A stretch of 28,306 bases of DNA, from IMG/VR virus record IMGVR_UViG_3300007509_000045, positions 1 through 28,306 of that record; one strand, written 5' to 3'. Both the position numbers and the translations under genes were made by a program. Each line of letters opens with the position of its first letter. Positions within the stretch are counted from its first letter, which is position 1. The notes under the pieces are model-generated. The model worked only from the letters and a program-made list of their open reading frames with translations. It searched no databases and was not told the origin of the DNA. This DNA comes from a virus. This document shows, one piece after another, positions 6,901 to 28,172 of the stretch.

Positions 6901-9900
6901 CCATACAACTTCCTTGAATGTTACGTTATCAAGAGAGATATTAGAACGCTTATCTATATCAACACTGATATAAACCTTAGCAAGACCACTTTCATTGTTT
7001 GTTACAAGGAATTGCTCAGAACCAATTCCTGGAATCATCACAAGTGGATCAATATAAGATGTAGTGCCAAGTTCAATATTCATTGCTTGAATCTTTGGAA
7101 TTGCACCTTCACCTGTAGCAGTTAACAGATTGCCTTCATTAAGTACGTCTGCTTGAGTTCCTTTTACTGGGAATGAATTTACTGGCTCAGGCTGTACCTG
7201 GAAGTAGTCAGTAGAAGTGCCGTTATCAACAACAATCTTATCCTTAATATGTAGAGGAGTGTACATATTGTCCTGACCGTGATGGTAGTAAACAACAATA
7301 TCTTCACCAGCATTAACAACAGGCAAGTCAATAATATTGAATTGTCCCATCATAGAAGCGTGCCAAGCACACTGATAGTAAAGTGTATCAGGAGCGACAG
7401 ATGGTACAGTGAATTCTAAAATTTCATATTTAGGAACGCCTGCCCCATCAAGACCAAAGTTAGAAGAATCAGCGTATGTTTGGTCACCAGCTCCCTCTTC
7501 TGCTCTTGAACCATTTACACCAAGTAGATACTCACCAAAATAAGCACCTGGAGTAAAGTGTGAACCATCATCAGTTGTAATATACATTGGGTGACCAGCC
7601 GCATTCACACGGAAGCGATAAGTGCCACCACGATAAAGGTTGACTGTTCTGTTAGTACCTTCAATCATACCTTCTTTATCAAATTTATATAGACCACCAT
7701 CAGCTTCTACAGCATAGTATCCATTTACTTCGCCAGGCGCAACAAATGGACCAAGTCCAGAATTACCATCAGAACCAGTAAGACCGAAATCTTCAGGAAT
7801 CTTCCAAGTGAATTCTTTAGAGAAGTTACCAATGTATTGTGATTCTCTCCATTGCGCTAATCCAACCTCACTTGTTGGATTCAAATCTAAACAAGTCTGT
7901 TTATCATCTTCGCCATTGTAGTACCATCCATCAACGTCTAACTCTTCACACCAACCATTTAACCCCATACAAACCGGGAATGTTTCTGTAGAAGTCCAGT
8001 TGCCTGGCTCCTCTTCAAGATTGTTGAATGGATTATGATCACCAGCAACGATAGTTAGACCGTGATCTGCTCTCATAGAAACACACTTCTTACCATCATT
8101 CTGTACCATACCCGCTTCAACTAGATTATCCCACCCTGCGCCGAGAATAGCTTTAACACCAGCCGCGTGCATATACATTGGAGTAGGGAGTCCAGTGAAT
8201 GGATCAGGCTGTACGATATGACCTGATGGATTCCAAGCATTATTAGTGAATTTATATGTACCACCACGATATAAGTCAAAACCACCTGTTGTTCCTTCGT
8301 TACCACCAAATGATGCTGCCACTGCTTCATCTACTTGATAAGGAGCATATGATGGATCAGAATGATCCCACCAAGTCCAGTACCAAGGTGAGTCTTGTGC
8401 GCCTTCAACAGTAGTGGTGTCTGGATCAACAAATGTTAATGTAGTTTGCGTATCTACAGTGATTTCCATATTGTCAGTCGGGCCATAACCATCACCAAGC
8501 GCAACAACAGTATGGTCGTTCATAGCACCAGGTAATTCAGATGGTGTATATGGTTGTGGTCCAGAAGGTAACTGAACAACATCGCCAACAGAAAGTCCGT
8601 GATTGGTTGATTTTACTGTTCTAGGACGTGACCAATGAATCTCTACGCCTTCAATATATGGAGAACCAACGTGATTTGTTAAATCTCTTTCTACTTCAAA
8701 TCTATATGATGCTAAATCCGCAACAACTTCATAAGATTCAACAACATCGAATTGTGTTGGAGTTGTGCCAGGAGCATTTTCAAGCGGATAAATAACAGAT
8801 TCGGTTAATACAAAGTGATCCCAATCGATAACATAGTCAACAAAGTAGTTAGTATTACCGTGATGAATGCCGTTATAAACATTCTGATAATGAACTTTAT
8901 CGCCAGCTTTCAAGCCGTGAGCATCACATTCGATACCTTTATCTTTCTTAACATATCCAATAATATCAATAAATGGAAGATTAATAGATGTGGGATTAGT
9001 ATCATCTCCACCTAACGCAAAATTATACTGACCAAGTGTAAACTGTGAAGAACCAGGGTACCAAACTCTATCGAAATCGTGGATATGCTGGTCAATAGCA
9101 ATGATTAAGTAAGTATCATTGTCTGGATCCAAACACCCCATCTCAAGAGTATGGAAATGCTGAGGATCAGAAGTACCGTAGTCAGAAGTAAGAATCAGTG
9201 TATTGCCTGAAGTAGCACTCCAAGTACCGTCAGTATCCTGTGTTACATTCTGTAGTGGAGCGGCCTTAAGAGTAGCCTCATCATCAAGAGAAATTAGAAT
9301 CTCGTGATAGTGACCGAAGTTAGTAAGTTCTACCTTAGTGCCGCCAGTAATATCATAATAGTTCTGCATTCCGTGAGTGTGTGAACCTGTCATACCAACA
9401 AGGTACATACCACCGTCGCCATTATTTAATGCAGGATCCCAATCGAAAGTTGCAGAGTGTGAGTGTGGAGAATTCTCTCCAGAACCTTCACCATCAGTAG
9501 AAGTCATAATAACTGTAGGTGTGCCATTCTTAATCTGTTGATATTCAGCAGGAGTTAATTCAGCAGTATGCAAGTGTCCGATAACATTAACATCATCAAA
9601 GAATATATCTACACGAGCATCGCCCTTTTGAACAGCAGTAATAATATATTCTTCCCATTTACGTTCGCCTACTCCAACAGAACCATCACCAGAACCATAA
9701 CCTGAGCCACCTGATATAAGTGTAATACCAAGAACAGAACCGTTAATTTCTCCACTAACACTACCTGCTACTGTAGGTGTACCACCTACAAGTGTAATAG
9801 TTGGAGGAGAATGGTAACCACTACCATTCTCCGTAATGGTAATAGAATCTATTGACCCAGAGGCATTAATTGTTGCTATAGCAGTTGCTGGAGTTGTTGG

Positions 9901-11499
9901 TATTGTGCCACCAATACCATCAGGAATTGTTGCTACATCTGGAGCAGATATTTGAACAGTAGGAGCAGTTTGGTAACCAGAACCGATATCATCAATACTT
10001 ATAGATGTTATGTTGCCAGAGAAATTAATTGATGCAGTAGCACCAGCACCGCCTCCACCCACAATATAAACTGTAGGAATTTCAATATATCCAGAACCAC
10101 CACTTGTTAGTGATATATCAGAAACAACACCGCCAGTGACTTGAACACTCGCAGACGCATTAGCAGTATCTGAACCAGTGCCGCCTTGAAAAACTACATC
10201 AACAGGAACACCAGCATCAGGATTCGTTTCAACTTCACCAGACTGGAAGGAAACAATATTACCAATTGATAAATCGTGATATAGAGACTCAACTACATTT
10301 TGGTCGCCCGCACCACCAAGTGAAGTACAAGATTGTGGTAATGCTAAGTTAATAGCATAAGAATTTGATAATGATGGTAATGCAACATTCGCACCATAAT
10401 TAATAGGAATCTTAACTGTATCGCCCGGATTCAAACCGTGGTCGATAGCATAAACGTATCTATGATTAGTTGTGGAAGTTAAACGACCTTCTTCAAGTGG
10501 GTGGAATGTACAGTGGAAATACAAGTCGTGATAACCGTCAACTACCCAAGACCAAGATTCTCCTGGATTTAAGTCTGGTGAAATGAATGCAATATTATCA
10601 TCAGATACAGCATTGTGAACCAGAATAGATGTAGATGGATTAGTGAAAATGATTGTGTCGCCTTCCCGAGCATTAATATGATAAGGAATCAGTATGTGAT
10701 TTTGTGCTTGTGGATCATTAATAGCGCCTTCATCCCAAACGCCGCCGCCAGATTGACAATCAATAGCCATTTGTTCAATAGAAGTATTCCACTCGATGGC
10801 AACGCCATCACAAGTAGGACGAACCAAAGATGCATCTTCAATTACAGAACAAATGAATGTTTGTGGATCAGGGCCGCCGCCAGTCTCCGAGAATACTGCT
10901 TTATCAGAAGATGGTATATCAACCATATTGAAGCCACCACTCAGTAAATCCCAATTAACTGGATTTACAGTCAAGTCATAAGAAAACTTGTACTGTGTAT
11001 TGGGTTTTAATTCAGTCTCGAACCAAGTAAGAGCAGTCTGTTGTCCATCAGTGAATGCTTGAACAATTTGAGTGCCTTCTGTAAATAATGTATCAAACTT
11101 ATATGCAATACCATTCGCCCAAGGACGTGCAAGGTCAACAGGAACATCAAAACCAGAGTTTTTAATTATTTCAAGTTCAAAAGCATCAGCAGAAAAAGAC
11201 GAATTGGTGACAAGGTTTGTTGTGTTATATGTTACATCAAAACCACCATTAGGAATCATTTCTGTTGGATTAACAAATGTTGCAGAACGATTAGCAACAT
11301 TAATCAGAAAGTCTTTATACTCTGGTAAATGCTCAAGATTCTCCATTACTTCCAGAGACTTCAACATCAGAGATAGATCCTTAACTAACAGATCAGGAGC
11401 AGATAATTTAATATTCAGAGAGTTGAGAAAATCACTCTTCTGTTGTTCTATTGTATTTAATTCAGTTAAAGTGAATTTGTGACCTGTATAGTGTGCCAT
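3964..11499 (-). CDS. 2511-residue mosaic tail/adhesin-like protein with copper-type cupredoxins, HxH modules, CBM-like domains and Cys repeats
   Basis: This giant structural protein is probably a baseplate-attached adhesin. Order of parts: a helical N-terminus (residues 1-80); a Cys loop at ~215-255; a cupredoxin (~265-340); GxGY beta repeats (~445-605); an HxH block (~635-795, six motifs); a first RGGTY segment (~1070) and a full RGGTY cupredoxin (~1282-1392); tandem jelly-roll, carbohydrate-binding-like units recognised by the repeated DN[VI][ST][VIF] ending (~1500-2110), with one HxH module between them (~1800-1873); six or so Cys-loop repeats (~2204-2356); and an IPT/TIG-like C-terminus. 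The ATG at 11499 follows AGGAAG at normal spacing and lies 18 bases after the small gene at 11518-11709. The nearest promoter is inside the gene at 11714-11923. The N-terminus matches no T4 baseplate protein that I recognise, so the place in the virion is inferred from context only. Confidence 0.8.
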   Translation of the reverse strand: MAHYTGHKFTLTELNTIEQQKSDFLNSLNIKLSAPDLLVKDLSLMLKSLEVMENLEHLPEYKDFLINVANRSATFVNPTEMIPNGGFDVTYNTTNLVTNSSFSADAFELEIIKNSGFDVPVDLARPWANGIAYKFDTLFTEGTQIVQAFTDGQQTALTWFETELKPNTQYKFSYDLTVNPVNWDLLSGGFNMVDIPSSDKAVFSETGGGPDPQTFICSVIEDASLVRPTCDGVAIEWNTSIEQMAIDCQSGGGVWDEGAINDPQAQNHILIPYHINAREGDTIIFTNPSTSILVHNAVSDDNIAFISPDLNPGESWSWVVDGYHDLYFHCTFHPLEEGRLTSTTNHRYVYAIDHGLNPGDTVKIPINYGANVALPSLSNSYAINLALPQSCTSLGGAGDQNVVESLYHDLSIGNIVSFQSGEVETNPDAGVPVDVVFQGGTGSDTANASASVQVTGGVVSDISLTSGGSGYIEIPTVYIVGGGGAGATASINFSGNITSISIDDIGSGYQTAPTVQISAPDVATIPDGIGGTIPTTPATAIATINASGSIDSITITENGSGYHSPPTITLVGGTPTVAGSVSGEINGSVLGITLISGGSGYGSGDGSVGVGERKWEEYIITAVQKGDARVDIFFDDVNVIGHLHTAELTPAEYQQIKNGTPTVIMTSTDGEGSGENSPHSHSATFDWDPALNNGDGGMYLVGMTGSHTHGMQNYYDITGGTKVELTNFGHYHEILISLDDEATLKAAPLQNVTQDTDGTWSATSGNTLILTSDYGTSDPQHFHTLEMGCLDPDNDTYLIIAIDQHIHDFDRVWYPGSSQFTLGQYNFALGGDDTNPTSINLPFIDIIGYVKKDKGIECDAHGLKAGDKVHYQNVYNGIHHGNTNYFVDYVIDWDHFVLTESVIYPLENAPGTTPTQFDVVESYEVVADLASYRFEVERDLTNHVGSPYIEGVEIHWSRPRTVKSTNHGLSVGDVVQLPSGPQPYTPSELPGAMNDHTVVALGDGYGPTDNMEITVDTQTTLTFVDPDTTTVEGAQDSPWYWTWWDHSDPSYAPYQVDEAVAASFGGNEGTTGGFDLYRGGTYKFTNNAWNPSGHIVQPDPFTGLPTPMYMHAAGVKAILGAGWDNLVEAGMVQNDGKKCVSMRADHGLTIVAGDHNPFNNLEEEPGNWTSTETFPVCMGLNGWCEELDVDGWYYNGEDDKQTCLDLNPTSEVGLAQWRESQYIGNFSKEFTWKIPEDFGLTGSDGNSGLGPFVAPGEVNGYYAVEADGGLYKFDKEGMIEGTNRTVNLYRGGTYRFRVNAAGHPMYITTDDGSHFTPGAYFGEYLLGVNGSRAEEGAGDQTYADSSNFGLDGAGVPKYEILEFTVPSVAPDTLYYQCAWHASMMGQFNIIDLPVVNAGEDIVVYYHHGQDNMYTPLHIKDKIVVDNGTSTDYFQVQPEPVNSFPVKGTQADVLNEGNLLTATGEGAIPKIQAMNIELGTTSYIDPLVMIPGIGSEQFLVTNNESGLAKVYISVDIDKRSNISLDNVTFKEVVWTESGSWQIQGGTAFTNTTVAGYIEQIVTGSIVEGTTYEIQYDIVESFKDDFDAEVGTVQAVLIGDTIVEGTSNTTVGHYSETVIAPANTNILRLNNTGKGKIDNVSIRERVTGQNAWYMGEGWNSVGGKAYIDGTISSKTEVNQTVDIETGKLYEVKYNLADLDPNDNGMSGRLRVTLGTNPENLISNWNFDFTDPVLVNWTTSGPDVQIVNEKLIFNSSTNGTATYTLANALVKNEKYEATIDCDVFDENILNFQVGPGPAGTHAHTFQMTETQSNWLQENPSVNTLSFVQTDGYHAETYTHIFTIAWSQDIMSYVLVSQTIPEGHDELTLVSTTNNNPTIDVFVDGVAQHTISTTGIHHIDLVGEASSTFMLQMNGSGSINSVKLVEEEIPAIDYDSTGVVPNGEQSYYTRAGSHDSKIHFIADVDNNRPEENNPYYTNIGFEGSIDNISVREVEENWTFASQEGGNSYVDQTSQQIYTSGVGTGARGIAHISFEITNEMNYRVGFNIDRPTDSIVKIGPTPDSDTYGSFEITANDNDGDKDFIFTAPVTGVAYITLSTTGNGFTYWDNVSVKTIPNLSSDEYLLLARSLNVFGVPIGGEERWKSVHLDMENADYTGQPISGMRTLESFGESVIENYYDVNRRSNDILNPPVSLTGMNIEFGTRAVTAINPSCSNDLYNNQVDCETPNGTWFDTVVSFCSDSIYPDEVSCIEPNGTWTAGSCSNPIYGDVTSCEDAGTCSDTQFNNNESQCTTSGGVWTSDNNTWTFGVCTDISFTDQSSCESPRGVWTPENPAHCTDLSFNDQSSCESPRGVWDATVVEAMTGDTIEVTGDGIDPNYIITIGGVEQSSSPINLPTKVNFILNADTPLGIQEFKITNIDGDFAILDVPFTVLDHLRIITVTDNLDGTYGVTGASFESTTTVTLIDQATTTGYPQTVTFVDANNISFTDVVNPGTYDVRVDNSDGSTFTEIDAVVIA
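4430..4890 (-). repeat. Tandem Cys-loop protein repeats (C-x-D-x2-[FY]...C...G-x-W)
   Basis: About residues 2204-2356 of the 2511-residue protein contain six or seven units such as CTDISFTDQSSCESPRGVW and CSDSIYPDEVSCIEPNGTW. Each has two cysteines about 9-11 residues apart, then G-x-W. The spacing suggests one small disulfide or metal-binding loop per unit. The array separates the CBM-like region from the IPT/TIG-like C-terminus. Confidence 0.8.
4453..4588 (-). repeat. 58-bp direct DNA repeat within the Cys-repeat array
   Basis: Positions 4453-4510 and 4531-4588 are identical at 56 of 58 bases by eye, with a period of 78 bases (26 codons). They encode two nearly identical Cys units, both containing DQSSCESPRGVW. 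Such high DNA identity points to a recent duplication or gene conversion. Confidence 0.85.
7325..7660 (-). other. RGGTY-type cupredoxin domain with a complete type 1 copper ligand set
   Basis: Residues ~1282-1392 of the 2511-residue protein run from NLYRGGTYRFRVNAAGHPM to LYYQCAWHASMMGQFNIID. The ligands expected for a blue copper site are present: H1303, C1377, H1380 and M1383, with C-x2-H-x2-M spacing as in amicyanin-like cupredoxins. Similar YRGGTY...C-x2-H domains are, from memory, frequent in marine phage structural proteins. Copper binding is predicted from the ligands, not shown. Confidence 0.75.
9680..10170 (-). repeat. GxGY beta repeats in the 2511-residue protein
   Basis: Residues ~445-605 hold four units of the form S-D-I-x-L-x-x-G-G-S-G-Y-x-x-x-P-T-V-x-[IL], each followed by a Gly/Ala-rich turn, for example GGSGYIEIPTVYIVGGGGAG. 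The same unit recurs about nine times in the protein at 294-3884. The pattern suggests a repetitive beta structure acting as a spacer. Confidence 0.7.
10480..10700 (-). other. Cupredoxin domain with His-Cys-His ligands and Glu at the axial Met position
   Basis: Residues ~265-340 of the 2511-residue protein show the cupredoxin pattern IPYHINAREGDTIIFTNPS, H295 in SILVHN, then YHDLYFHCTFHPLEEG with C330 and H333. At the C+6 position where Met would be expected there is E336 (L335 before it). This resembles type 1 copper sites without a Met axial ligand. Metal occupancy is unproven. Confidence 0.65.
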
Positions 11500-17434: not shown

Positions 17435-18445
17435 TTAGAATTCAACTACAAGTTTCAAATCTTCAATCTGATCAGAAGCACGAGTAATCGCACGGCGATT
17501 CTCAAGATAAATTAACTGTCCTGAATCTTGTTCAAGTGATGTAACAGCATCAGCATATACCGCAGATTGTGCCTTTGTTCCACCGCCCGCCAATTCAGGA
17601 TTACGTAACAGACCAATTTGACGGAAGTCATCATTTTCTGGGAATCCATCAGAAGTTTCTAGTCGAACGTGAATCAAACCGTGATGACATTTTGCCGTAA
17701 AGATAGCATCAACATCACCAAAGTTTGATTGCTCAGAACCAGAAAGAACACCAGTACCAGAAATAACAGGCATCCAGTCATTTGTAGTTGAGTTAATAAT
17801 ATCATTCAATTCTAGCTTATAAAGGAAAGTCCACACATAACCATCAGCAGTAGTAATTGCTTGTGAAGTTAGTCCTGCCGCATCACCTGTAAATCCAGTT
17901 GGTTCCTCAGAAGCACCAGTAGGTAGCCATAATCCACCAGTAGTGTTCTCACAAGTTGTACGTGAAGTAGCAGTACCACCATCAAATACACCACCAATAT
18001 AACACTTACCACCAGTAGGTTCACCAGTACACATATAAACACGATACTCTGAATTCATTATAACTGAATGATATCCAGTCTTTGAAACGAAAGAACGACC
18101 GGGCTCAGCGATACCTACAATACCATTAGTAGTATCACCATCGAATGCTAAAGTATCACCGCCTTCCCAGTCAACACGTGGAAGTACAGGTGATATATCA
18201 TCATTCTGAATACGCTTTGCGCCAACAATGTCAGCCCAATATTGTCCTTCATCTTCATCAAGTGGATCAGGTAATGTGAAGTTACCTGAAGATTCGTCAT
18301 TTCCTTGAGCATCATCAGCCCACGCTTGTGAACGTCCGAAGCCTAGATACAGGAAGTTATCATCAACAGAACCAGTAGTTTTGAACTGGTCAATAAATAC
18401 CATCAAGTTCTGTGTTCTAAATTTACTGGTTACAATTGCACCCAT
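17435..18445 (-). CDS. 8: Baseplate wedge protein gp8
   Basis: At 336 residues this is almost the length of T4 gp8 (334), which forms part of the baseplate wedge with gp7 and gp10. It begins MGAIVTSKFRTQNLMVFIDQ and has the marine gp8 signature YLGFGRSQAW, a middle EYRVYMC strand, TTADGYVWTFLYKLELNDII with NDWMPV, and the C-terminal LENRRAITRASDQIEDLKLVVEF. Between YRVYMC and the PTGF segment lies a Cys- and Gly-rich loop (two cysteines, then CENTTGGLW) resembling the Cys-loop repeats of the giant proteins, so this copy appears to carry an added surface module. The ATG at 18445 follows AAGGAG with 8-base spacing and an exact late promoter box 51 bases upstream. Gene order (after gp7) supports the call. 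Confidence 0.85.
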   Translation of the reverse strand: MGAIVTSKFRTQNLMVFIDQFKTTGSVDDNFLYLGFGRSQAWADDAQGNDESSGNFTLPDPLDEDEGQYWADIVGAKRIQNDDISPVLPRVDWEGGDTLAFDGDTTNGIVGIAEPGRSFVSKTGYHSVIMNSEYRVYMCTGEPTGGKCYIGGVFDGGTATSRTTCENTTGGLWLPTGASEEPTGFTGDAAGLTSQAITTADGYVWTFLYKLELNDIINSTTNDWMPVISGTGVLSGSEQSNFGDVDAIFTAKCHHGLIHVRLETSDGFPENDDFRQIGLLRNPELAGGGTKAQSAVYADAVTSLEQDSGQLIYLENRRAITRASDQIEDLKLVVEF

Positions 18446-18527: not shown

Positions 18528-21500
18528 TTATACTGGGACAGGCCACACATTTGAATCATCAATGATTGTAGTATGTATATGGTCGCCTGCACCGCCGCCT
18601 TCAAAGTTTTGTGTCCATTCTCCACCTAATGCAACACTACCTAAATATGTCAACAAATTGTGATTGTCATAGTCGCTAGTTTGTGATACAATGTTATATT
18701 GTCCAGTCGTATGTGAAACTGTCAATTCGTGTGTATATTGAGTTGCGTGAATCATATCTCTCTGAGGAGTTATAACGAGATTTCCAGAAAGAAGAGAAGT
18801 GTATTCAGAAACGCTCATCCAATAATCGTGATCGTGATAACCACCAGACAACTTGAATTTATGTACAGTCTCACCAGTACCAGGAATTCTATCAAACTGA
18901 GTGATTCCTGTTACAACAAACTCACCATCTGGCCCAATATTAGGATTAAACTTAATTGTATATCCGTGATAATGAGCGTCAGCCCCATTAGGCGAATCGA
19001 AGAAAATGAATCCGTAATTAATATCCTGAGCATTGATTAATTCATTTGCTTGTGAAAGTGTAATTGGTTCACAGATTCTGCCTGCATATTGACCTTCTGA
19101 GTCAAGTGTACAGCCATCATATAATAAGTGGTCGTGTGAACCTTCTCCATCAATAAATGATGGCTGAATCCAAATAACAGGCGGGTTATTCGCCTGAAGA
19201 ATTCCATTAACGAATGTCTTTCTTTCTGTCAAATCTTCTACTGTTTCTGTTGTTGTAGTAGGCGTAGAAACATTTGAAATTACTGGTTCACCAACTACAA
19301 CTTGATTTGCTCCATCAGAATAATATGTTGTAGTGGTTGTAGTGGTAGTGATTGTTACTGTTTCTGTTGTTGTAGTAGTTATCAAATCAGAATAAGTCGT
19401 GATAACAGTCGTATCACCAGCTTCTGGAGTGTCATTGTATGTTGTAGTTTCAGGACTTAATTCTGTTGATGATGATTGTACTGTAATCTGTGGATCAGAA
19501 GTTAATACTTCATCAACGCTTGTTGTTCTTGTTACAAAGATTGAACCACCAGTCTGTTGAGGAACTGGAGCGGTATTAGGATTCCAGTCAACAGTCAAGT
19601 TATGCCAATGAAGTCCTTCGGACTCATTCATTACAACAGATGTATAATATTTCGAAGTGTCTTGTGTATTATCTTCAATACCACCACGAATCCAAGTAGT
19701 GGATTCTGAACAATAGAATTTATTTGTCACATCGTTCCATTTGATTGTATAATCGTGGAAGTGGGCACCCTCAATTGAATCATACACTAATACTGATTCT
19801 TCAATACCATCAATCAGATTCATTGCTTCTGTGGTTGATAAACCATCAGCGTGTTCAATCTCATTATTCCAAGCAAATGGTCCAACAACTGTATTATTGA
19901 AGAAGTGTGGATGCGAACCACCAGGATACGGATAACCAGGCGCACCGAACGTTGGAAGAATTGATAATGATTCATTGAATCCAGGTCGTGAAATAACATT
20001 AGAAACACTTGTTGCGTGAGCGTGTGACCTTGGCGTAGTGTTGAAGAACTGAGCACCATCTGTAGATTCCCATTTCTCCACATCCTGGGCAATGAATGAC
20101 AATGAATCACTATCATAGGTTACACGAATGCCGTGATAATGGTCGCCGTTTGCGATAGAAGAATATATCATAATTTCTGCTGAATCGCCATTAATCAAGT
20201 CAGTTGCTTGTTCATCTGTTATAGGAAGAGATTGTCTTCCTGCATTAACACCAATTGTATCAAGTGTTGTATTATTAAATGAATGAAGATGATCAATTTC
20301 AGACCCTTCAAGATTGTCCCAATCGTGGGCATTTGCAAGAGTTACATCAGGAGCAGAATGAAGTGGAGTACCATTCCATCCTAAGTGAGTAGTTAATCCA
20401 TCTACTGTCAATGTATGCTCGTGAGTTCTTGTGTCCTCTGTTACCATAGTGTATTCACCAGTGTTATATTCATCCCAGAATTCACCGATTTCATTTGCAA
20501 TGAATTGTTGAGTGGATAAATTCCAAAGAATCTTATACTTATGATAATGTAATCTATTGCCAGAGTTAATGATAGATGAGTAAATAATTACTTCATTCAC
20601 AACACCATTTGCTAATTCTTGTGCTTGGATACGTGTGAGTGGTGTAGCGAGTCTATCTGAATTTGCACCAAGTGTGTCAAGTTGTGAACTATCAAAATAG
20701 TGGATGTGAGTGTTTTCTCCATACTCATTTGCACCAAGAATGTTTACAATAGGAGCATTTTCAATATAGAATGTAGTTGGTCCATCATCAGTCTCAGGTG
20801 TCCAAGGTGTATCTGCACCAGTGTCATATGGTTCCCAAATATCATTCTCTTCGTTATAATACCATCCAGCAGAGGAACCAATAATGGTATCTTTATCAGT
20901 AACACCAGTCCAAGATGTGATAACAGGATGAATATGGGAAGCTGGATCATTTAATGACCAGATAGGCCAGAATTCATCCCAATCTTGCATTTCGATATCT
21001 GAAATCTCTTCGACTTGGAACATATTCTCATTATCATACGTCACTTTGTATCCGTGAACGTGAGCCACTTCCGTAGCTGGTATCTGAGCTGGTGCATTAG
21101 GAATATCAACAGAACTGTAAGTTTCTGTTAACTTATAAATGTTTGTATTATTTGGGCCAGTTCCTTGAGCAGTGTCAATACCACCACGGGTGGAGAAGTA
21201 TAATTCTCCATCTGTATCTTCGCCGATAGTTAATAATGATTCGTCATATGTGGTAAGGGTGACAACTTCGGTCACAGGATCCCAAAATGAAAGAGGTTTT
21301 CTTATATATGCAAAATCATCTGACCACTTATCAAACTCTAATATGTCGTGTCCTTCAGGATTTGTCTGACCAACAAGATGGAATTGATTATCTGCTGTAC
21401 TCCATATCATTGTAAATGTATGAACATAGAATTCAGAATGAACAGAATCCGTCTGAGTCACCACAACAGGTGATCCTGGATTTGCTTGTAAGAATTGAAC

Positions 21501-24500
21501 GTGTGCCGCAGTTAATGTTAGTGTATGACTATGGGTAGAGCCATTTGTTGGATTCGGCAGAACAATAAAATGAGCAGATAGTCCCTCATTATTCTCTTCT
21601 AATGTATATAAATGACCAGATGTACCTTCCCACGTAGTAGACCAATCACCAAAGATATACTTACCTACCAGTTCAGGCATAGCAGTACCACGATACACAA
21701 AACCACCACACACTGAAATACCAGTGCCGTGAGAATATTCGTGAATAGGTTGCTTTAAGTCATTCAAGTATTCGTTTGTAGTAGTATATCCTAAATCAAT
21801 AGCAATTTGGTCAATAATTGGTTGTTGTTCTTCATAGTAATGATATGCTTCCATTACTCTCCAACCGTAGTTGCCGCCCGATTCTACAATATTAATCTCT
21901 TCAAATTTATCTTGACCAACATCAGCACACCAAAGTCTTCCAGTGTTATCAAAAGAGAATCTCCAAGGATTTCTGAATCCGAATGCGAAGATTTCAGGCC
22001 TATATGCTACTGAATCTGGGCCGTAAATTGAAGCAGTAAATGGATTATCCACAGGAATAGTATACGGTAGATTGTTTACTGTATCCTCTGTAGGATCGAT
22101 TCTAAGAATACATCCAAGTAGATTAGTAGGATTTTGAGCATTACCATAGTTGCCGTGTCCACCGTGGCCTGTAAGCGGAGAAGTGTCACCAGCAGAACCA
22201 CCATCACCAAGACCAATATACAGCATATCATCTGGTCCGAATGCTAGTTCACCACCATTGTGATTGAAATCAGGCTGTGGAATAGTCATTAGGACTCTTT
22301 CTGTTGAAATGTCTACAGAATGAGTAGCAGGATCAGCAGAAGTGAATTCTGATATAACAGTAGATGAAAGAGGATACCCCCAAGCACCAGTTGCGCCGCC
22401 CTGTTCTGTCATATAGTAAACATATAACTTACCATTATTAACATAGTCAGGATGAAACGCTATACCAAGCAATCCTCGTTCATCATAGTTTGCGAACGGG
22501 CCGAGACCAATAGTTAGATTCAATGAAGTCAAGTCCATAAAACCATCAGTTGCGCCAGTTATAGTGTCTAATAGATAAATCAATCCAGCTTGGTCACAAA
22601 TAACAACTTTATTACTATCCATTGGATATGCTTCAATAGTGGCGATATCAGTTACTTGATCTGTCAACATAGTAGCACTTACTAGGTCTCCAGTATCACC
22701 AGTGCCGGCAATTTGAGCAATATGATTAGATGAGTAAATTTCTACCCAATCAACATTTGGATTTAGCTGTTCACTCCATACTTGATTGTGTTGTAGTGTA
22801 ACATCAGGATTGTTTAAGAAACCAGCAACATATTCGTCCGAAACTTCCATAAAGACGTTCTGAGGCCATTGATTGCCCATAAAGTCCATTCCACCCATAG
22901 AATCAGGATCAACAATCTTGTCTGGCTGATAGTTGAAACATAGCCAAGTAGTTACAGGAGTGTATATAAATCCGTGAGTTAATGGATTATTCTGCCAGTC
23001 AGTTTTGTTTTCCCAATCAGCATCATATGTCACTTCATATTCGTGATAATGGGCAGAAGTAATTTCTCCGTGGATATTCGTGATTGTGCCACCTTGAGTC
23101 ACATCGTATTCATCAACAATAGGATGACCATTATCAAGTTTACCGATATTGTCATATAGTGTAACAGAAGTGATATCACCATCAATTAATTGTCGTGCTT
23201 GTATTCTTGAAAGAGGATCAGCAGTACGCCCTCTTTGTCTATCAACAACTTCACCAGGTTCAAAATATGAGGCGTGTCCTTTCAGTGGAGATAATGATTC
23301 AAGTGTGAAATAGCCCCAAGATTGTGAATTAGTATGACAAGTCGCTTCGTCTGGAGATGTTTGATCGGAACACATTGGATTCATCCAGAACATTGGGTCA
23401 CCAAAGAACGCCACACAATCAGCTTCGTTTGTGTATTGTGAATTGAAACATTCTCCGATACCATTATAACGTGGATCAGTTTCAGAAGCAACCCAATCAC
23501 CCCAAAGAGGAGGTGTCATAATTCCACCACAAACGAGATTAGCACCATAGAATGTTGGAATCTCGAATGCGTTTCTATTAATCAAATCTCTTGCTTCTTG
23601 GTGTGATAATCCTCTTGCAGTTGCTTCTTTGCCGTGTACAATAAGATTCTTGATTTGCTCACCATTAAAATCGTGAACGTGGAATGCCGAAGCCCCAACA
23701 TTCATTTCAGGCAATTCAAGTCCTTTTGTGATAACAGTCTCCACAAGAGGAGCAAATCCATTCTTTTCTCCGTGAGAATGGATTTCGTGTTCACTTTCAA
23801 ATGCCTGAATCTCAACAGTATCAATTACATCATTGGTTACGCCATAAATATTGTGAATTCTATTTGATTCTCTATTAGCCTCAAAATACTTGTATGATTT
23901 CTCAGGCGCATAGTCTGCCTCTGGCATAAATGAATCAACCCATTCAACAAGTTTTTGAAGTGCTTTATATACAGACATTTCCCAAATTTCAGCAGAAATC
24001 ATTCTACCATCTGTGGAACTATACAAATCATCAACAATTTCCAATTCTTGTGTTGCAGACGGGAATTCATCAATAGGTAGAACCTTCAATTGTTTTGTGA
24101 ATTCAAGAGCAGTTGTTTCTGGCCAAGCAAGAATTGAGTTTCTTACATCTTCATTCATCCAAGAAATTGTATATAGTTTCTCTTTAACTATAGTGCCAAT
24201 TCTACCAGCATCAATCTCAAAGTTTACAGATAGATGGTCTGTTGGATTATCCCAAGATTCAGCAGAAATTAATGCGGATCTATTGTCCATCATATTCATA
24301 ATTTCTACAACATATTCATCAAATCCATCTTCAAGATAAACACCAAATCCAGTATGCGCTCTTCCAACTGTACCGTGTTGTTCTGACTCTTGGTCCCAAA
24401 TATCAATAGCAACATCAAGATATGAGAAGATGTATGTAATCAATTTAACATAATTCGATGGCATTTCAACCTTAAGGTCTACGGTAGACTGGAATGAGAA

Positions 24501-25976
24501 TTCAGCAAATAGTTTTAGACCAACTGGATGAACCAGCTTCTTTAATACTTCACGGTATGTCTGTACAGGAACATCAGATTTAATTACATAAGAGAAGTCC
24601 TGATAATAACTATTATCTTGGAGTTTTCTATCAGATGATAAGAATCCGCCAGAATCTAACCAATAACCATTTGTCTTCCAAACAGCAGTTTTAACTTTTG
24701 AATGAGAACCATCAAGAAGATTATTACACTGTTCACGAGTAACTGGCCGTGCTGTGCCTTCTGTGAGAATGTTATTTTCTACGCTTTGTATAGTTGAAGT
24801 AACTTCGGCTAATGGGAACCAGTGTAGAAATGCTGGTTCACCGAAGAAAGGTGATTCATTAATATGTCCTTCTGGATGCAGTGCATTTACACAATCAATT
24901 TCATTATCAAATGTGAATAGCGGATAATCATTACTTGAGGAACAGAACGAAGATGTTGGATTTTCCCAATATATTGAACCAGCAGTATTGAAAATATTCT
25001 CACCAACAACAAACTCACCATCAATATTTTTTAGGTCAAATCGTGTCCAGTCTGTATTAAATCCTTCAATAATCGCTGTTGCATTTGATGTAGTACCTTT
25101 AATCGCGCCAGCGCCTTCTGATATGATATACTTAACTTCATTCGGATGGGTTGTGATATGCATCCAACGATCTGCCCAAGAGTTACCGTTGATTATACAT
25201 TCACCTTCAGTTTCGATGCCTTCCGAGATAATAACAGCAACGTATGGTATCTGACCAGATGTACCAACATCTTCCCAGATTGGCTCGCCCTTGATGAACT
25301 CTCCTGAAACTTCTGTTAAAAGTAACTTCTCATAATCAGAAGTTGCTGAACTTTCATCCATATCAATGAAAGCAGTAGCCCCAGATATTTGACCAATAAC
25401 TTTCTTATTATATACTGTCCTTACAGTTTCAGCAGTATGAACATTTTCAATCTCATTATAGTATTCAGATTCAGGATTAGTGGTCTCTTTATCTGTTAGA
25501 ACTGTAATCCATTTTGGCTCATACCAAATTGAACCAGACGATTTCATCAACCACTGTTTCGGATAAATAACATTTACATCGGTATTAAAATCTCTTCTGA
25601 ATAGAAAATTAAGTGCAGATGTTGTACCTTTTTGTCGATAAACATCTTGAATATTTTTAGCAAGGAATGCCTTATCTGTAGTAGGTACAGTGGGATCGAT
25701 TGCAGTGTGTGGAGTTGTTGTTAGATATTGTTTCTCGAACTCTGGTATAAATTGATCCAAAGCGTGGTCAATATCAACATTCTGAATTAAATCTGTAATC
25801 TGAGAATATTCACCAAGTTCACCATTGACGTCCGTTTCCCTTTCCAGATATTCAAAATACTTCCGTAAGAAAGTAATGAACATAGGATGATCTTCCCGAA
25901 CATAATCAGGAACCATTCTCTCTACAAAGATTGAAAGAAACTTTGCTGGAGTTTTGGAAAAATTATCGTTGGCCAT
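18528..25976 (-). CDS. 7: 2482-residue gp7-like baseplate wedge protein carrying a sugar-dehydrogenase propeller and HxH repeats
   Basis: Residues ~1-510 resemble the C-terminal half of T4 gp7, the wedge organiser: VREDHPMFITFLRKYFEYLE, then VYRQKGTTSALNFLFRRDFN, a VIGQISGATAFID segment, and HPVGLKLFAEFSFQSTVDLK. Gene order (6, this, 8) agrees. T4 gp7 is about 1032 residues; the extra length here lies after this core. From about residue 735 the protein is a His-rich array with 19 HxH motifs, including six copies of a unit with R-x2-P-[LI]-[ST]-x2-[QE]-A-x2-L-I-x-G. After the second copy a glucose/sorbosone dehydrogenase propeller (~1090-1615) is inserted. A Thr-rich linker (~2145-2250) precedes the last copy. 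Cys loops occur in the gp7-like half and near residue 850. The ATG at 25976 follows AGGT, 20 bases after gene 6. The gp7 identity is good for the N-terminus; the functions of the insertions are unknown. Confidence 0.75.
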   Translation of the reverse strand: MANDNFSKTPAKFLSIFVERMVPDYVREDHPMFITFLRKYFEYLERETDVNGELGEYSQITDLIQNVDIDHALDQFIPEFEKQYLTTTPHTAIDPTVPTTDKAFLAKNIQDVYRQKGTTSALNFLFRRDFNTDVNVIYPKQWLMKSSGSIWYEPKWITVLTDKETTNPESEYYNEIENVHTAETVRTVYNKKVIGQISGATAFIDMDESSATSDYEKLLLTEVSGEFIKGEPIWEDVGTSGQIPYVAVIISEGIETEGECIINGNSWADRWMHITTHPNEVKYIISEGAGAIKGTTSNATAIIEGFNTDWTRFDLKNIDGEFVVGENIFNTAGSIYWENPTSSFCSSSNDYPLFTFDNEIDCVNALHPEGHINESPFFGEPAFLHWFPLAEVTSTIQSVENNILTEGTARPVTREQCNNLLDGSHSKVKTAVWKTNGYWLDSGGFLSSDRKLQDNSYYQDFSYVIKSDVPVQTYREVLKKLVHPVGLKLFAEFSFQSTVDLKVEMPSNYVKLITYIFSYLDVAIDIWDQESEQHGTVGRAHTGFGVYLEDGFDEYVVEIMNMMDNRSALISAESWDNPTDHLSVNFEIDAGRIGTIVKEKLYTISWMNEDVRNSILAWPETTALEFTKQLKVLPIDEFPSATQELEIVDDLYSSTDGRMISAEIWEMSVYKALQKLVEWVDSFMPEADYAPEKSYKYFEANRESNRIHNIYGVTNDVIDTVEIQAFESEHEIHSHGEKNGFAPLVETVITKGLELPEMNVGASAFHVHDFNGEQIKNLIVHGKEATARGLSHQEARDLINRNAFEIPTFYGANLVCGGIMTPPLWGDWVASETDPRYNGIGECFNSQYTNEADCVAFFGDPMFWMNPMCSDQTSPDEATCHTNSQSWGYFTLESLSPLKGHASYFEPGEVVDRQRGRTADPLSRIQARQLIDGDITSVTLYDNIGKLDNGHPIVDEYDVTQGGTITNIHGEITSAHYHEYEVTYDADWENKTDWQNNPLTHGFIYTPVTTWLCFNYQPDKIVDPDSMGGMDFMGNQWPQNVFMEVSDEYVAGFLNNPDVTLQHNQVWSEQLNPNVDWVEIYSSNHIAQIAGTGDTGDLVSATMLTDQVTDIATIEAYPMDSNKVVICDQAGLIYLLDTITGATDGFMDLTSLNLTIGLGPFANYDERGLLGIAFHPDYVNNGKLYVYYMTEQGGATGAWGYPLSSTVISEFTSADPATHSVDISTERVLMTIPQPDFNHNGGELAFGPDDMLYIGLGDGGSAGDTSPLTGHGGHGNYGNAQNPTNLLGCILRIDPTEDTVNNLPYTIPVDNPFTASIYGPDSVAYRPEIFAFGFRNPWRFSFDNTGRLWCADVGQDKFEEINIVESGGNYGWRVMEAYHYYEEQQPIIDQIAIDLGYTTTNEYLNDLKQPIHEYSHGTGISVCGGFVYRGTAMPELVGKYIFGDWSTTWEGTSGHLYTLEENNEGLSAHFIVLPNPTNGSTHSHTLTLTAAHVQFLQANPGSPVVVTQTDSVHSEFYVHTFTMIWSTADNQFHLVGQTNPEGHDILEFDKWSDDFAYIRKPLSFWDPVTEVVTLTTYDESLLTIGEDTDGELYFSTRGGIDTAQGTGPNNTNIYKLTETYSSVDIPNAPAQIPATEVAHVHGYKVTYDNENMFQVEEISDIEMQDWDEFWPIWSLNDPASHIHPVITSWTGVTDKDTIIGSSAGWYYNEENDIWEPYDTGADTPWTPETDDGPTTFYIENAPIVNILGANEYGENTHIHYFDSSQLDTLGANSDRLATPLTRIQAQELANGVVNEVIIYSSIINSGNRLHYHKYKILWNLSTQQFIANEIGEFWDEYNTGEYTMVTEDTRTHEHTLTVDGLTTHLGWNGTPLHSAPDVTLANAHDWDNLEGSEIDHLHSFNNTTLDTIGVNAGRQSLPITDEQATDLINGDSAEIMIYSSIANGDHYHGIRVTYDSDSLSFIAQDVEKWESTDGAQFFNTTPRSHAHATSVSNVISRPGFNESLSILPTFGAPGYPYPGGSHPHFFNNTVVGPFAWNNEIEHADGLSTTEAMNLIDGIEESVLVYDSIEGAHFHDYTIKWNDVTNKFYCSESTTWIRGGIEDNTQDTSKYYTSVVMNESEGLHWHNLTVDWNPNTAPVPQQTGGSIFVTRTTSVDEVLTSDPQITVQSSSTELSPETTTYNDTPEAGDTTVITTYSDLITTTTTETVTITTTTTTTTYYSDGANQVVVGEPVISNVSTPTTTTETVEDLTERKTFVNGILQANNPPVIWIQPSFIDGEGSHDHLLYDGCTLDSEGQYAGRICEPITLSQANELINAQDINYGFIFFDSPNGADAHYHGYTIKFNPNIGPDGEFVVTGITQFDRIPGTGETVHKFKLSGGYHDHDYWMSVSEYTSLLSGNLVITPQRDMIHATQYTHELTVSHTTGQYNIVSQTSDYDNHNLLTYLGSVALGGEWTQNFEGGGAGDHIHTTIIDDSNVWPVPV
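19225..19545 (-). repeat. Thr-rich low-complexity linker
   Basis: Residues ~2145-2250 of the gp7-like protein are dominated by Thr, Ser and Val, including eight consecutive Thr (VTITTTTTTTTYYSDG) and the segments LITTTTTETV and STPTTTTETV. It resembles a flexible or extended linker between the fifth and sixth His-rich repeats. Confidence 0.75.
21130..22710 (-). other. Glucose/sorbosone (PQQ-dependent sugar) dehydrogenase-type beta-propeller domain inside the gp7-like protein
   Basis: Residues ~1090-1615 carry the series of motifs of the GSDH family in the right order: ERGLLGIAFHPDY with NGKLYVYY; HNGGELAFGPDDMLYIGLGD; NAQNPTNLLGCILRID; PEIFAFGFRNPWRFSFD; LWCADVGQDKFEEINIV; GGNYGWRVME; HEYSHGTGISVCGGFVYRG; KYIFGDW; and, after an insertion, LTIGEDTDGELYF with IYKLTE. 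H1239 (in HNGG) matches the catalytic His of soluble glucose dehydrogenase, and R1335-N1336 match cofactor-site residues. The Lys usual in LLGKILRID is Cys here. A ~70-residue HxH module (about 21330-21545) splits the domain before its last strands. Whether it binds PQQ and calcium, or only sugars, is not known. Confidence 0.8.
21330..21545 (-). other. HxH module inserted within the dehydrogenase propeller
   Basis: Residues ~1478-1548 read THSHTLTLTAAHVQFLQANP, then VVVTQTD, then YVHTFTMIWSTADNQFHLVG and QTNPEGHDILEF. The same module occurs in the 2511-residue protein (THAHTFQM ... FTIAWS ... QTIPEGHDELTL) and the 1196-residue protein (GHTHTLQF ... HSHDITVAWN ... GHDHEMTI). Confidence 0.75.
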
Positions 25977-25996: not shown

Positions 25997-27760
25997 TTAT
26001 TCTGCGATTGATTGCATTGTAACACTACTATTATTTAGTACAAGCAAGTTACTTCTTATTGCAGAAATATCATTTGATTGTGGTGTAGCATATAAACTAA
26101 TAACTGAATTTGTGTCAAGTACAGGTCTAAATCCGATTAGCTCAATAACTCCAGTATCATAGTCTACTGTTCCCTGTTCTGTATTCACGAATACCTCAGA
26201 AACAATATCATAAAGAAGTATATTTCCTTGACCATCATCTAGTAATGCATATTGAGTAGATGCCTCAGTATTACCAAATACAGAAGAAACAGCAGTACCT
26301 GGTTTAATTGCATTATCATATTTGAATATATAGTTACCAGTTGTATTGGATGCTTGAATATAGAATTTCTTATAAATCTTAATATCAGTCAAGTTATTAC
26401 TAATTGATGAATCCGTATTATCAATCGTATTGGTTAATTTAGAATATCGTAAGGTGACTTTGAATTGACTGATTTCGTCTTTGAAGAATCGTTCAATACT
26501 ATTAATAATATTACTCTGAATTTCACCAGCAGATAATGATGTCTCTAATGGATTATATTTCACTGTGGTATCAACATCAATATATGTGTATTCAGGAGCA
26601 GTAATTATTGGATTAATTGCCAACATATTATACTTTGAAAGAATATCTTTCGTCAATTTTTGTTTAGTTAATGGTGATAATTCGAGTCCGTGTTTAGGTT
26701 TAATACAGATGAATACCGCACCATATTGCGGAGGATCATTATCTTCGCCACCCCATACAGAAATAGAATCGATGTTTGGATATTTCTCAATCAGAATAGT
26801 TTTATAATCTTCTGCTGTTACAGCACGATTTTGACGTTCATACGCCCTCGGCGCAGTCATTTTGATATTTTCTGTTGATTCGATATTTGAACCCAGAGAA
26901 GAAATATCAACAGTTTCCACACTAACTTTACTTGAATCATATACACCATCAATGGTTGTTTCAAGTGCAAACACTTGTTCATTAATTGTTGATGAATAGT
27001 TGCCGGCTTCACCAGTTGTTGAAAGATATGTAACACTGATTACAGAATTATGATATGGCACTTTTCCGAATATATCATTACCGAAATAAATCTCAGTTAC
27101 TCCATCCAGACCTTCTTGAAGAAAGTAAATATTTGAGGAGGGATTCGTTTCAGAAAGAAATTGATCATTGGACCAAGGAATATCATTAACAGTTAATTTA
27201 ATTGTACTTCTATCGCAAGTAGGATCCTTAATGATAAAGTTTTGTATTTCAGAAAGTCCTTCATCATATGTCCATTCAAGACCTTTTAGAGAGCCTTGAT
27301 GAAGTTTGATTTCACCTGAGAATTCATTTCCTTCATCCTCAAAAATATTCACGGTATCAACATTTGTGAATGGCATAGAAACACCATTAATACTAGAAAC
27401 AAATTGTGTTCCTCTTTCAACTATGATATAATTTGGATCATATCCATCAGTATTGAATGAAAGTTTAACAATAGCCTCGGCAGCAGTAGCGGATTTAGGA
27501 GTATATCCAATAGTCTTTGCGTGAGATACTACAGAATTTCGTAGTGTTGCAGTATCAAGAAAGGATTCATTGATTGCCATATTAGTATGGAAACCCATAT
27601 AATGAGTTGTGTATGCCATTACATCAAGCATAACGCTCATACCAGAACCTTCAAAATCATAGTCCACGAATTCATCTTGATTAATCAAGAATTCTTTGAT
27701 ATTCTTCTTAATTCCATCAAATTCAAGATTTGAAATATTTAATTGTCTTTGTTCTGCCAT
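25997..27760 (-). CDS. 6: Baseplate wedge protein gp6
   Basis: This 587-residue protein (T4 gp6 is 660) matches the gp6/baseplate J-like family, which forms the inner ring joining neighbouring wedges. Signatures are the N-terminal NISNLEFDGIKKNIKEFL with FEGSGMSVMLDVMAYTTHYM, the ESFLDTATLRNSVVSHAKTI-GYTP segment, YLSTTGEAGN, PRAYERQNRAVTAEDYKTIL followed by KYPNIDSISVWGGE, and a C-terminal Y-D-T-G-V-I-E-L strand. Here the T4-like order is gene 25, gene 6, gp7-like, gene 8. The ATG at 27760 follows AAGGT and lies 4 bases after the gene 25 stop, so the two are probably co-translated. No insertion modules of the kind in the neighbours are evident; this core gene looks unembellished. Confidence 0.9.
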   Translation of the reverse strand: MAEQRQLNISNLEFDGIKKNIKEFLINQDEFVDYDFEGSGMSVMLDVMAYTTHYMGFHTNMAINESFLDTATLRNSVVSHAKTIGYTPKSATAAEAIVKLSFNTDGYDPNYIIVERGTQFVSSINGVSMPFTNVDTVNIFEDEGNEFSGEIKLHQGSLKGLEWTYDEGLSEIQNFIIKDPTCDRSTIKLTVNDIPWSNDQFLSETNPSSNIYFLQEGLDGVTEIYFGNDIFGKVPYHNSVISVTYLSTTGEAGNYSSTINEQVFALETTIDGVYDSSKVSVETVDISSLGSNIESTENIKMTAPRAYERQNRAVTAEDYKTILIEKYPNIDSISVWGGEDNDPPQYGAVFICIKPKHGLELSPLTKQKLTKDILSKYNMLAINPIITAPEYTYIDVDTTVKYNPLETSLSAGEIQSNIINSIERFFKDEISQFKVTLRYSKLTNTIDNTDSSISNNLTDIKIYKKFYIQASNTTGNYIFKYDNAIKPGTAVSSVFGNTEASTQYALLDDGQGNILLYDIVSEVFVNTEQGTVDYDTGVIELIGFRPVLDTNSVISLYATPQSNDISAIRSNLLVLNNSSVTMQSIAE

Positions 27761-27764
27761 AATA

Positions 27765-28172
27765 CTACCTTAATCTTTTTAAGAAGAAATCCAAATTAAT
27801 CAAACCAGAATCATTATTTGGTGTATAAAAAATGGAAACTGTATAGCCATTTTTATCTGGATCAGCATTTACAATAATTCTTTGTAATGATATTCTCGGT
27901 TCGTGAAGTCTTATAGCGGCTTCAATTTGTGCTTCTAGTGTAACTCTTGTTTCAATACTCATCGGTTCAAATAATGAACTATATATTGTACTACCAAAAT
28001 CTGGTTGAAAAACACGCTCCCCCTTTTGTGTTTTAATTATATTAATAATCGAACCATTAATAGCCTCAACATCATTTCTTCCAACAATATCATTTGTTAG
28101 AGGATGTACAATCATATCTAGGTCAATATCCCTATATCGTCTTGTAATTTCAGTTTTAATCGGCTGTGGCAT
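27765..28172 (-). CDS. 25: Baseplate wedge protein gp25
   Basis: At 135 residues this is close to T4 gp25 (132), the small sheath-initiating wedge subunit related to the lysozyme-like GpW/gp25 family (without a lysozyme role here). Visible family traits are the RYRDIDLDM opening, VEAINGSIINIIKTQKGERV, F-Q-P-D-F-G-S-T-I-Y-S-S-L-F-E-P, and the conserved E-P-R core in IRLHEPRISL, ending LDFFLKRLR. The ATG at 28172 follows AAGGAT, and an exact late promoter box lies 28 bases upstream, right after the PAAR gene stop. It appears to start the gene 25-6-7 transcription unit. Confidence 0.93.
   Translation of the reverse strand: MPQPIKTEITRRYRDIDLDMIVHPLTNDIVGRNDVEAINGSIINIIKTQKGERVFQPDFGSTIYSSLFEPMSIETRVTLEAQIEAAIRLHEPRISLQRIIVNADPDKNGYTVSIFYTPNNDSGLINLDFFLKRLR

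Follow-up and report, generated by a model that had tools for sequence, protein, structure and literature searches.

The window analysed here, a 28,306-nucleotide stretch of viral DNA (IMG/VR virus record IMGVR_UViG_3300007509_000045, positions 1 to 28,306), encodes a gp7-type baseplate wedge protein of 2,482 residues, and embedded within this protein is a predicted complete beta-propeller of the glucose/sorbosone dehydrogenase (GSDH) family. The propeller retains much of the pocket of the pyrroloquinoline quinone (PQQ)-dependent sugar dehydrogenases and, among proteins of solved structure, resembles the animal protein HHIP most closely, and we lean towards viewing it as a sugar-binding module displayed by the virion for adsorption.

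A complete GSDH propeller within a baseplate wedge protein

The features that carry this finding are listed below, with the residue equivalents numbered as in soluble glucose dehydrogenase.

21111..22730, minus strand: complete GSDH/HHIP-like beta-propeller, residues 1083-1622, predicted from Pfam, model and structural matches
22260..22262, minus strand: H1239 (HNGG), equivalent of the catalytic base His144, in 23 of 23 phage sequences
21969..21974, minus strand: R1335-N1336 (FRNP), equivalents of Arg228-Asn229, in 23 of 23 phage sequences
21912..21917, minus strand: G1354-Q1355, equivalent of the catalytic Ca2+ loop Gly247-Pro248, in 23 of 23 phage sequences
21231..21239, minus strand: S1580-L1582, site of the missing Arg406/Arg408
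21330..21551, minus strand: histidine-rich segment inserted in the propeller, residues 1476-1549

An earlier note on this DNA, made from the letters alone, had claimed an in-frame series of sugar-dehydrogenase motifs inside a gp7-like wedge protein. The frame is indeed open on the minus strand and the motifs lie where they were claimed, among them the HNGG histidine (H1239) and the RNP pair (R1335-N1336), with LLGCILRID starting at residue 1286, DVGQ at 1352 and GNYGW at 1368. The family match that the note proposed as a check is significant, as PF07995 (GSDH) aligns to residues 1164-1443 with E=1e-33 and a score of 117.5 bits (cut-off 25). The location given for the domain was right, but its extent of 21130-22710 was slightly too narrow.

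A first AlphaFold2 model, built from an alignment of the 23 phage sequences, had a predicted local distance difference test score (pLDDT) of 66.9, and its best matches were already HHIP and PQQ glucose dehydrogenases. A second model, based on 17 of the 23 phage sequences, 57 of 80 cellular relatives and one further phage protein (L246), reached a pLDDT of 86.6 and a predicted template modelling score of 0.88. Its highest structural Z score was to the C-terminal part of HHIP (HHIP-C; Z 40.2, 349 residues, 2.9 Å), followed by the Pyrobaculum PQQ sugar dehydrogenase 3a9g (Z 39.8, 334 residues, 2.6 Å), E. coli Asd (Z 38.4, 334 residues, 2.5 Å), PQQ-bound 3das (Z 37.5, 324 residues, 2.8 Å) and 1cq1, soluble glucose dehydrogenase with PQQH2 and glucose (Z 33.9, 363 residues, 3.2 Å). 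The fungal AA12 enzymes fell below HHIP and the bacterial enzymes (Z 26.5-27.5), and the next-ranked propellers scored 22.6 or less. Alignments to HHIP and the bacterial PQQ dehydrogenases fall within model residues 8-540 with root-mean-square deviations of 2.4-3.5 Å. The predicted structure is thus the GSDH propeller that the note had anticipated, with Z scores of 33-40 to HHIP and PQQ sugar dehydrogenases, and the modelled domain is complete and, by analogy with the matched structures, six-bladed.

The pocket is conserved but the PQQ-carboxylate anchors are absent

To compare the pocket we used 23 aligned phage sequences, retained from 34 (33 contigs plus the window) after 11 near-duplicates were dropped (L001, L003, L008, L011, L014, L015, L016, L020, L024, L027 and L028). 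In soluble glucose dehydrogenase, His144 is the base, Arg228 and Asn229 lie at the PQQ ketones and Gly247 and Pro248 at the catalytic calcium (passages of PMC6881810), and Lys377 and Arg408 contact the PQQ carboxylates (passages of PMC6881789). The phage propeller shares with this enzyme and Asd (1cq1, 2g8s, 3a9g, 3das) the fold, the catalytic histidine, the Arg-Asn pair and the glycine of the calcium loop; the Pro248 position is occupied by Gln, as it is in PQQ-bound 3das, and the Asp163 equivalent, D1258, is the same in all 23 phage sequences. In contrast, the equivalents of Lys377, of Arg406, which we take to be a further PQQ-carboxylate anchor, and of Arg408 are S or G, S, and L, I or M, respectively, and the anchors are absent in 23 of 23. 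The comparison of PQQ and Ca2+ sites suggested by the note thus comes out divided: the His144, Arg228, Asn229 and Gly247 equivalents are kept, and the three anchors are missing.

The same division is found in cellular proteins. Among the best 80 of 552 cellular relatives, the corresponding sites hold His in 79 (a count partly built in, as the scan patterns included the NHN motif and FGPD), Arg in 80, Asn in 80, Gly in 79 and Gln in 79, whereas the Lys377 site is Lys in one, the Arg406 site Arg in nine and the Arg408 site Arg in three. Loss of the anchors is therefore a trait of the subfamily and not phage-specific decay. These relatives came from a genome-contig scan whose query alignment included cellular members, the same scan with phage sequences alone having found no relative; Arg228, Asn229 and the PQQ anchors lay outside the scan patterns. 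In an alignment-free motif search, 67 of the 80 showed the His motif and 77 the RN motif. Fifty-eight alignment columns are at least 95% conserved in the 80 relatives, and 51 of these are kept in at least 22 of the 23 phage sequences; soluble glucose dehydrogenase keeps 34 of 56, and in HHIP R228 and N229 are changed to H and D. R1597, K1408 and H1412, invariant in all 23 phage sequences and rare among the cellular relatives, could be substitute PQQ anchors.

Selection was assessed by the Nei-Gojobori method in 16 pairs, and in the propeller the nonsynonymous rate (dN) was well under the synonymous rate (dS), with many dS values near saturation (for example, dN 0.13 against dS 1.01 for L005/L006 and 0.13 against 1.12 for L004/L023). 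In these two pairs identity is higher in the propeller (82-83%) than in the core (64-69%) or tail (57-68%) of gp7; the propeller is not more conserved in L012/L025 (85%, against 90% for core and 90% for tail) or L013/L019 (80%, against 84% and 82%). Judged by the presence of H, R, N, G, Q and D1258 in 23 of 23 sequences, the retained subfamily positions and dN below dS, the pocket is under constraint. Two features that the note had weighed against full activity lose their force: the Lys-to-Cys change in LLGCILRID falls at a variable position (N, T, C, K, S or A across the 23 sequences), and the added cysteines (Cys1127, Cys1289 and Cys1423) are confined to the window's own sequence. Its alternative of a retired enzyme is too strong, since the His144, Arg228 and Asn229 equivalents are kept throughout.

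The gp7 gene and the recurrence of the fusion

The gene and its neighbours are arranged as follows.

18528..25976, minus strand: gp7-type baseplate wedge protein, 2,482 residues, from gene order and wedge-family matches
24162..25976, minus strand: gp7 core, residues 1-605, 66% identical to sister phages with a gp7 of ~711 residues
22731..24161, minus strand: end of the core, putative split HxH module and Cys-containing segment, residues 606-1082
18531..21110, minus strand: C-terminal tail, residues 1623-2482, with four HxH modules
17435-18445, minus strand: gp8, Pfam or PHROGs match
25997-27760, minus strand: gp6, Pfam or PHROGs match
27765-28172, minus strand: gp25, Pfam or PHROGs match

Within the IMG/VR record the 2,482-residue open reading frame (ORF) occupies the third place in the T4-like order gp25-gp6-ORF-gp8, on a single strand throughout. 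It matches the baseplate wedge families PHROG 17744 (E=4e-46, residues 12-244) and PF23786 (36.2 bits, cut-off 27, residues 446-493). Because of its gp6 and gp8 flanks and these family matches, we assign it as a gp7-type wedge protein; it lies between gp6 and gp8 and matches a wedge family, as T4 gp7 does. It differs from T4 gp7 in an extra arm of ~1,800 residues that contains the propeller and the HxH modules. The G+C content of the propeller (39.3%) is not an outlier against the remainder of gp7 (36.1-38.5%). The gp23 of the window's virus is nearest to those of pelagiphage HTVC008M (54%) and methylophage Melnitz (53%), relatives that suggest a probably marine setting for this phage clade.

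The search of viral genomes for the same fusion, also proposed in the note, was productive. IMG/VR scans yielded 35 contigs: in 33 the domain is complete or almost so, and in the other two its end lies at a contig edge. The 35 derive from 32 sample numbers and include several near-duplicates. A 99-kb contig (3300007513_000015) contains the window's 28.3 kb at 99.9% identity, with three base differences in the 7,449 of the gp7 gene, a further contig has a domain 99.8% identical to the window's, and 31 additional contigs carry propeller relatives at 60-75% identity. The gp7 core lies upstream in the same gene at 28 of 33 loci, the other five being broken off by the contig end, and gp8 lies downstream at 31 of the 33. 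The exceptions are L026, whose contig ends within the gp7 tail, and L009. The possibility of an assembly chimera between phage and bacterium, against which the note had advised a check, is practically eliminated by the 99-kb contig and the 31 contigs at 60-75% identity, because other contigs carry the gp7-propeller fusion.

Some individual records deserve mention. In L009 the similarity to the gp7 tail ends early, after 12439, and the remaining 2.8 kb holds no gp8, which could reflect a variant end or a misassembly; L024 has a frame change in the gp7 tail. The domain matched none of 50,697 phage records in a nucleotide search, and tblastn returned five weak matches at ~26% identity, to four 'Acinetobacter phage MD-2021a' contigs and one unannotated faecal scaffold. 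CAKLQH020000008.1 (L071), a record bearing that phage name, holds yliI, ycgN and rarA and resembles a bacterial chromosome contig.

The propeller lies in an accessory arm rich in HxH motifs

Three close sisters, L113-L115 (gp8 81-82% identical, perhaps one lineage), encode gp6, a gp7 of ~711 residues and gp8, with neither propeller nor HxH tail. Because these close sisters lack the whole arm, the gp7 arm is accessory. A gp8 census of 51 loci, in which near-duplicates are counted, found GSDH in 33 (two with only its end) and its absence in L113-L115; 13 loci were uninformative, with at most 1.5 kb upstream, and two distant loci (27-29% identity) were without GSDH. Considering close gp8 loci with sufficient upstream DNA, GSDH is present in 33 of 36.

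In gp7 there are 19 HxH motifs where shuffled sequence gives 2.96 (maximum 9 of 500). Four HxH modules of ~80 residues each follow the propeller (residues 1755-1834, 1895-1970, 2020-2096 and 2279-2361), and comparison of gp7 with itself by blastp gave no repeats at E < 1e-3. A profile of the HxH module matched the half after the propeller in 12 of 12 gp7 proteins (E 2e-6 to 9e-3) and gave no match to the half before it (E 29 to 72 in the eight proteins listed), so that a propeller nested within one HxH module is no more than suggested. The 2,511-residue ORF elsewhere in the window (3964-11499) also has a raised HxH count, 7 against 1.33 in shuffled sequence (maximum 5 of 500), and includes near-identical 58-bp direct repeats at 4453-4588.

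The propeller is itself interrupted by the histidine-rich segment, in which all 23 phage sequences keep H1482, H1484, H1513, H1519, H1543, D1510 and D1544, each in a column gapped in half or more of the 80 cellular relatives. From these residues we infer a putative metal site. Matches of the segment to the HxH-module profile (E 6.5e-4 in L006 and 0.06 to 2.5 in the other 11) are too weak to establish kinship between the two. Other propeller inserts are Cys-rich in L012 and L022 and consist of different segments in L026 and L029.

An HHIP-like domain of probable cellular descent, found in further phage genes

The nearest solved protein by sequence is HHIP (E=2e-27), with glucose dehydrogenase at 8e-15. 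Among the matches listed, the cellular relatives (33-45% identity) are spread across many phyla of Bacteria and Archaea. Those named 'PQQ-dependent sugar dehydrogenases' (Halobaculum, Deinococcus, Pontibacter) share the pocket signature and the missing anchors with the phage domain, but in the records viewed they have no fusion to a phage protein and no histidine-rich insert. In a maximum-likelihood tree of 117 rows, built by a quick method without bootstrap and containing several long branches, the 23 gp7 copies form one clade nested in the cellular HHIP-like radiation, with a Shimodaira-Hasegawa-like approximate likelihood ratio test (SH-aLRT) support of 100. A further split (SH-aLRT 99) separates soluble glucose dehydrogenase, Asd, 3a9g and 3das, together with the phage protein L249, from the remaining rows; the HHIP branch is long. 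By its side of the tree and its best PDB sequence matches, the gp7 propeller is HHIP-like in sequence, and it apparently derives from a single capture of a cellular protein, although the 117-row tree singled out no nearest cellular donor. NCBIfam model TIGR03606 gave 66.9 bits for gp7 and 71.4 for the domain alone, below its cut-off of 434.55, and the cellular relatives L064 and L067 are likewise under this cut-off.

The domain also occurs outside gp7. In seven contigs, L252-L258 (three of which are L246-L248), a GSDH domain forms the C-terminal part of an encoded protein. In L246 this domain scores 163.6 bits and keeps 56 of the 58 subfamily-invariant positions; the N-terminal part, common to at least four other contigs of the group, weakly matches the tail-fibre family PHROG 2710 (1.8e-5), and the gene adjoins one matching a wedge/tail-fibre connector. 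A T4-type gp23 was present in L248 only among the L246, L247 and L248 contigs. This carrier, from a different group of phages, is probably a tail-fibre protein. Its GSDH and that of gp7 may represent separate captures; they occupy different genes and, in the tree, separate long stems. Two single contigs extend the range: L249 (5050-6828) has a GSDH domain of 197.5 bits in the second ORF after a gp5-like baseplate hub gene, with the catalytic His replaced by Leu and the Arg406/Arg408 pair (RxR) retained, and L251 (3760-7443; 1,228 residues) combines Calx-beta, GSDH and a head-tail-attachment match under cut-off, next to a capsid gene.

In BFVD, which holds predicted viral structures, all four strong matches belong to giant viruses, with E of 2e-18 or below, and three carry the name GSDH; the best phage row reached E 1.8e-6 with a TM-score of 0.16. 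The giant-virus proteins (Pithovirus LCPAC202, Marseillevirus LCMAC102) likewise place a GSDH fold in a viral genome, the link being by predicted fold, but these viruses are not phages. The GSDH entries concerned are A0A481Z5E4, A0A481Z663 and A0A481YUV5 (Pithovirus LCPAC, Marseillevirus LCMAC).

Functional interpretation

T4 gp7 is a peripheral wedge protein at the baseplate rim, and the arm should therefore be exposed. With a confidence only a little above even, we favour a displayed propeller that binds sugars during adsorption through its constrained pocket, with the surface position drawn from gene context. In this clade of uncultivated T4-like phages a long accessory gp7 arm carries an intact HHIP-like propeller with the histidine-rich segment threaded in; some six copies would be displayed at the rim if gp7 sits as in T4, the conserved GSDH pocket would bind host-surface sugars, and the HxH modules may be metal-stabilised spacers. 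We think simple sugar binding likelier than turnover. This interpretation is preferred because of glycan binding by HHIP and the precedents for virion propellers: the C-terminal part of HHIP binds heparin, and a loop inserted in its blade 3 serves partner binding (passages of PMC8660895), while propellers with proven or putative roles in host contact are described for the phi11 receptor-binding protein, PRD1 P2 and PhiKZ gp131C (passages of PMC4901313). HHIP-C (7pgm, 7pgn, 3ho5, 2wft) is a GSDH propeller of six blades, closest in sequence and top-ranked in structure (its Z score tied with that of 3a9g), with a functional insertion in the propeller and heparin binding of its own; it differs in belonging to a secreted animal antagonist with Arg228/Asn229 changed and EGF repeats where the phage has HxH modules. 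The three virion propellers differ in having five or seven blades, and none of them is, to our knowledge, of the GSDH family.

Several considerations weigh against this interpretation. The baseplate position of gp7 is carried over from T4. Keeping H, R and N exceeds the needs of binding and favours catalysis. Retention by itself discriminates poorly: of the 45 subfamily positions covered in HHIP, which is not known as an enzyme, 37 are kept. Passages of PMC8660895 describe the heparin contacts of HHIP as surface clusters on the propeller and EGF repeats and do not place them in the pocket.

The intact catalytic base and both quinone-contacting residues in 23 of 23 sequences would suit a working virion quinoprotein that oxidises terminal sugars of the host surface at adsorption, having acquired Ca2+ and PQQ (or a different quinone) from its surroundings; we regard this as possible but unlikely. 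The kept Gly of the calcium loop, the Gln shared with PQQ-bound 3das and the Z scores to 3a9g, 3das and 1cq1 are consistent with such activity; R1597, K1408 and H1412 could replace the missing anchors, and fungal AA12 enzymes bind PQQ without Lys377 (passages of PMC6881789). Set against this are the absence of the three anchors in every phage sequence and of PqqD and PqqE in seven virus records, all possibly fragments and with the PqqE model a weak control, under its cut-off in all 14 controls. We also know of no characterised enzyme from the HHIP-like prokaryotic subfamily. It seems doubtful to us that a contractile-tail baseplate bears an oxidoreductase of the quinoprotein type acting on host-surface sugars, with the same trick used on the tail fibres of the other group.

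The closest solved relative by sequence points elsewhere, as HHIP binds protein via its inserted loop (passages of PMC8660895) and the phage propeller too has an inserted segment with invariant residues. The domain might accordingly be a protein-protein or structural module that docks a tail or host protein, with pocket residues only holding the fold, and the Leu in place of the catalytic His in L249 shows another phage GSDH without that residue; yet Arg228/Asn229, changed in HHIP, are kept in all 23 gp7 sequences, and we rate this explanation as rather improbable. AA12-type quinoprotein glucose/L-sorbosone dehydrogenases have been reported among viral carbohydrate genes of mangrove soil (a passage of PMC6460857), which would accord with an auxiliary metabolic enzyme that serves the cell during infection and is fused to gp7 by chance. 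This we consider very improbable, given a propeller inside a long structural ORF with the gp7 core at every locus not cut at a contig end and the placement of the other phage GSDH copies in tail or virion genes.

Propellers displayed on virions are already known, but the papers listed in the literature searched, which left most subscription journals outside, described neither a GSDH-type propeller in baseplate gp7 nor a GSDH domain in any other tail protein of a phage. The enzymes known from phage tails are for the most part hydrolases, lyases and esterases. A dehydrogenase fold that has its catalytic signature intact and occurs in a conserved baseplate gene, and probably in tail fibres too, points to a class of domain for recognising or modifying the host that is still unexplored. 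Because some sister phages have the arm and others lack it, its role is open to test, and the link to HHIP supplies a concrete glycan-binding hypothesis.

Two minor observations were made by eye on other contigs. Two adjacent ORFs in G001 (58757-62275; L075-L076) and in G002 (44420-47947; L080) have the look of NodU-type carbamoyltransferases, and the G002 ORF at 82355-82738 has that of an IscU-type scaffold.

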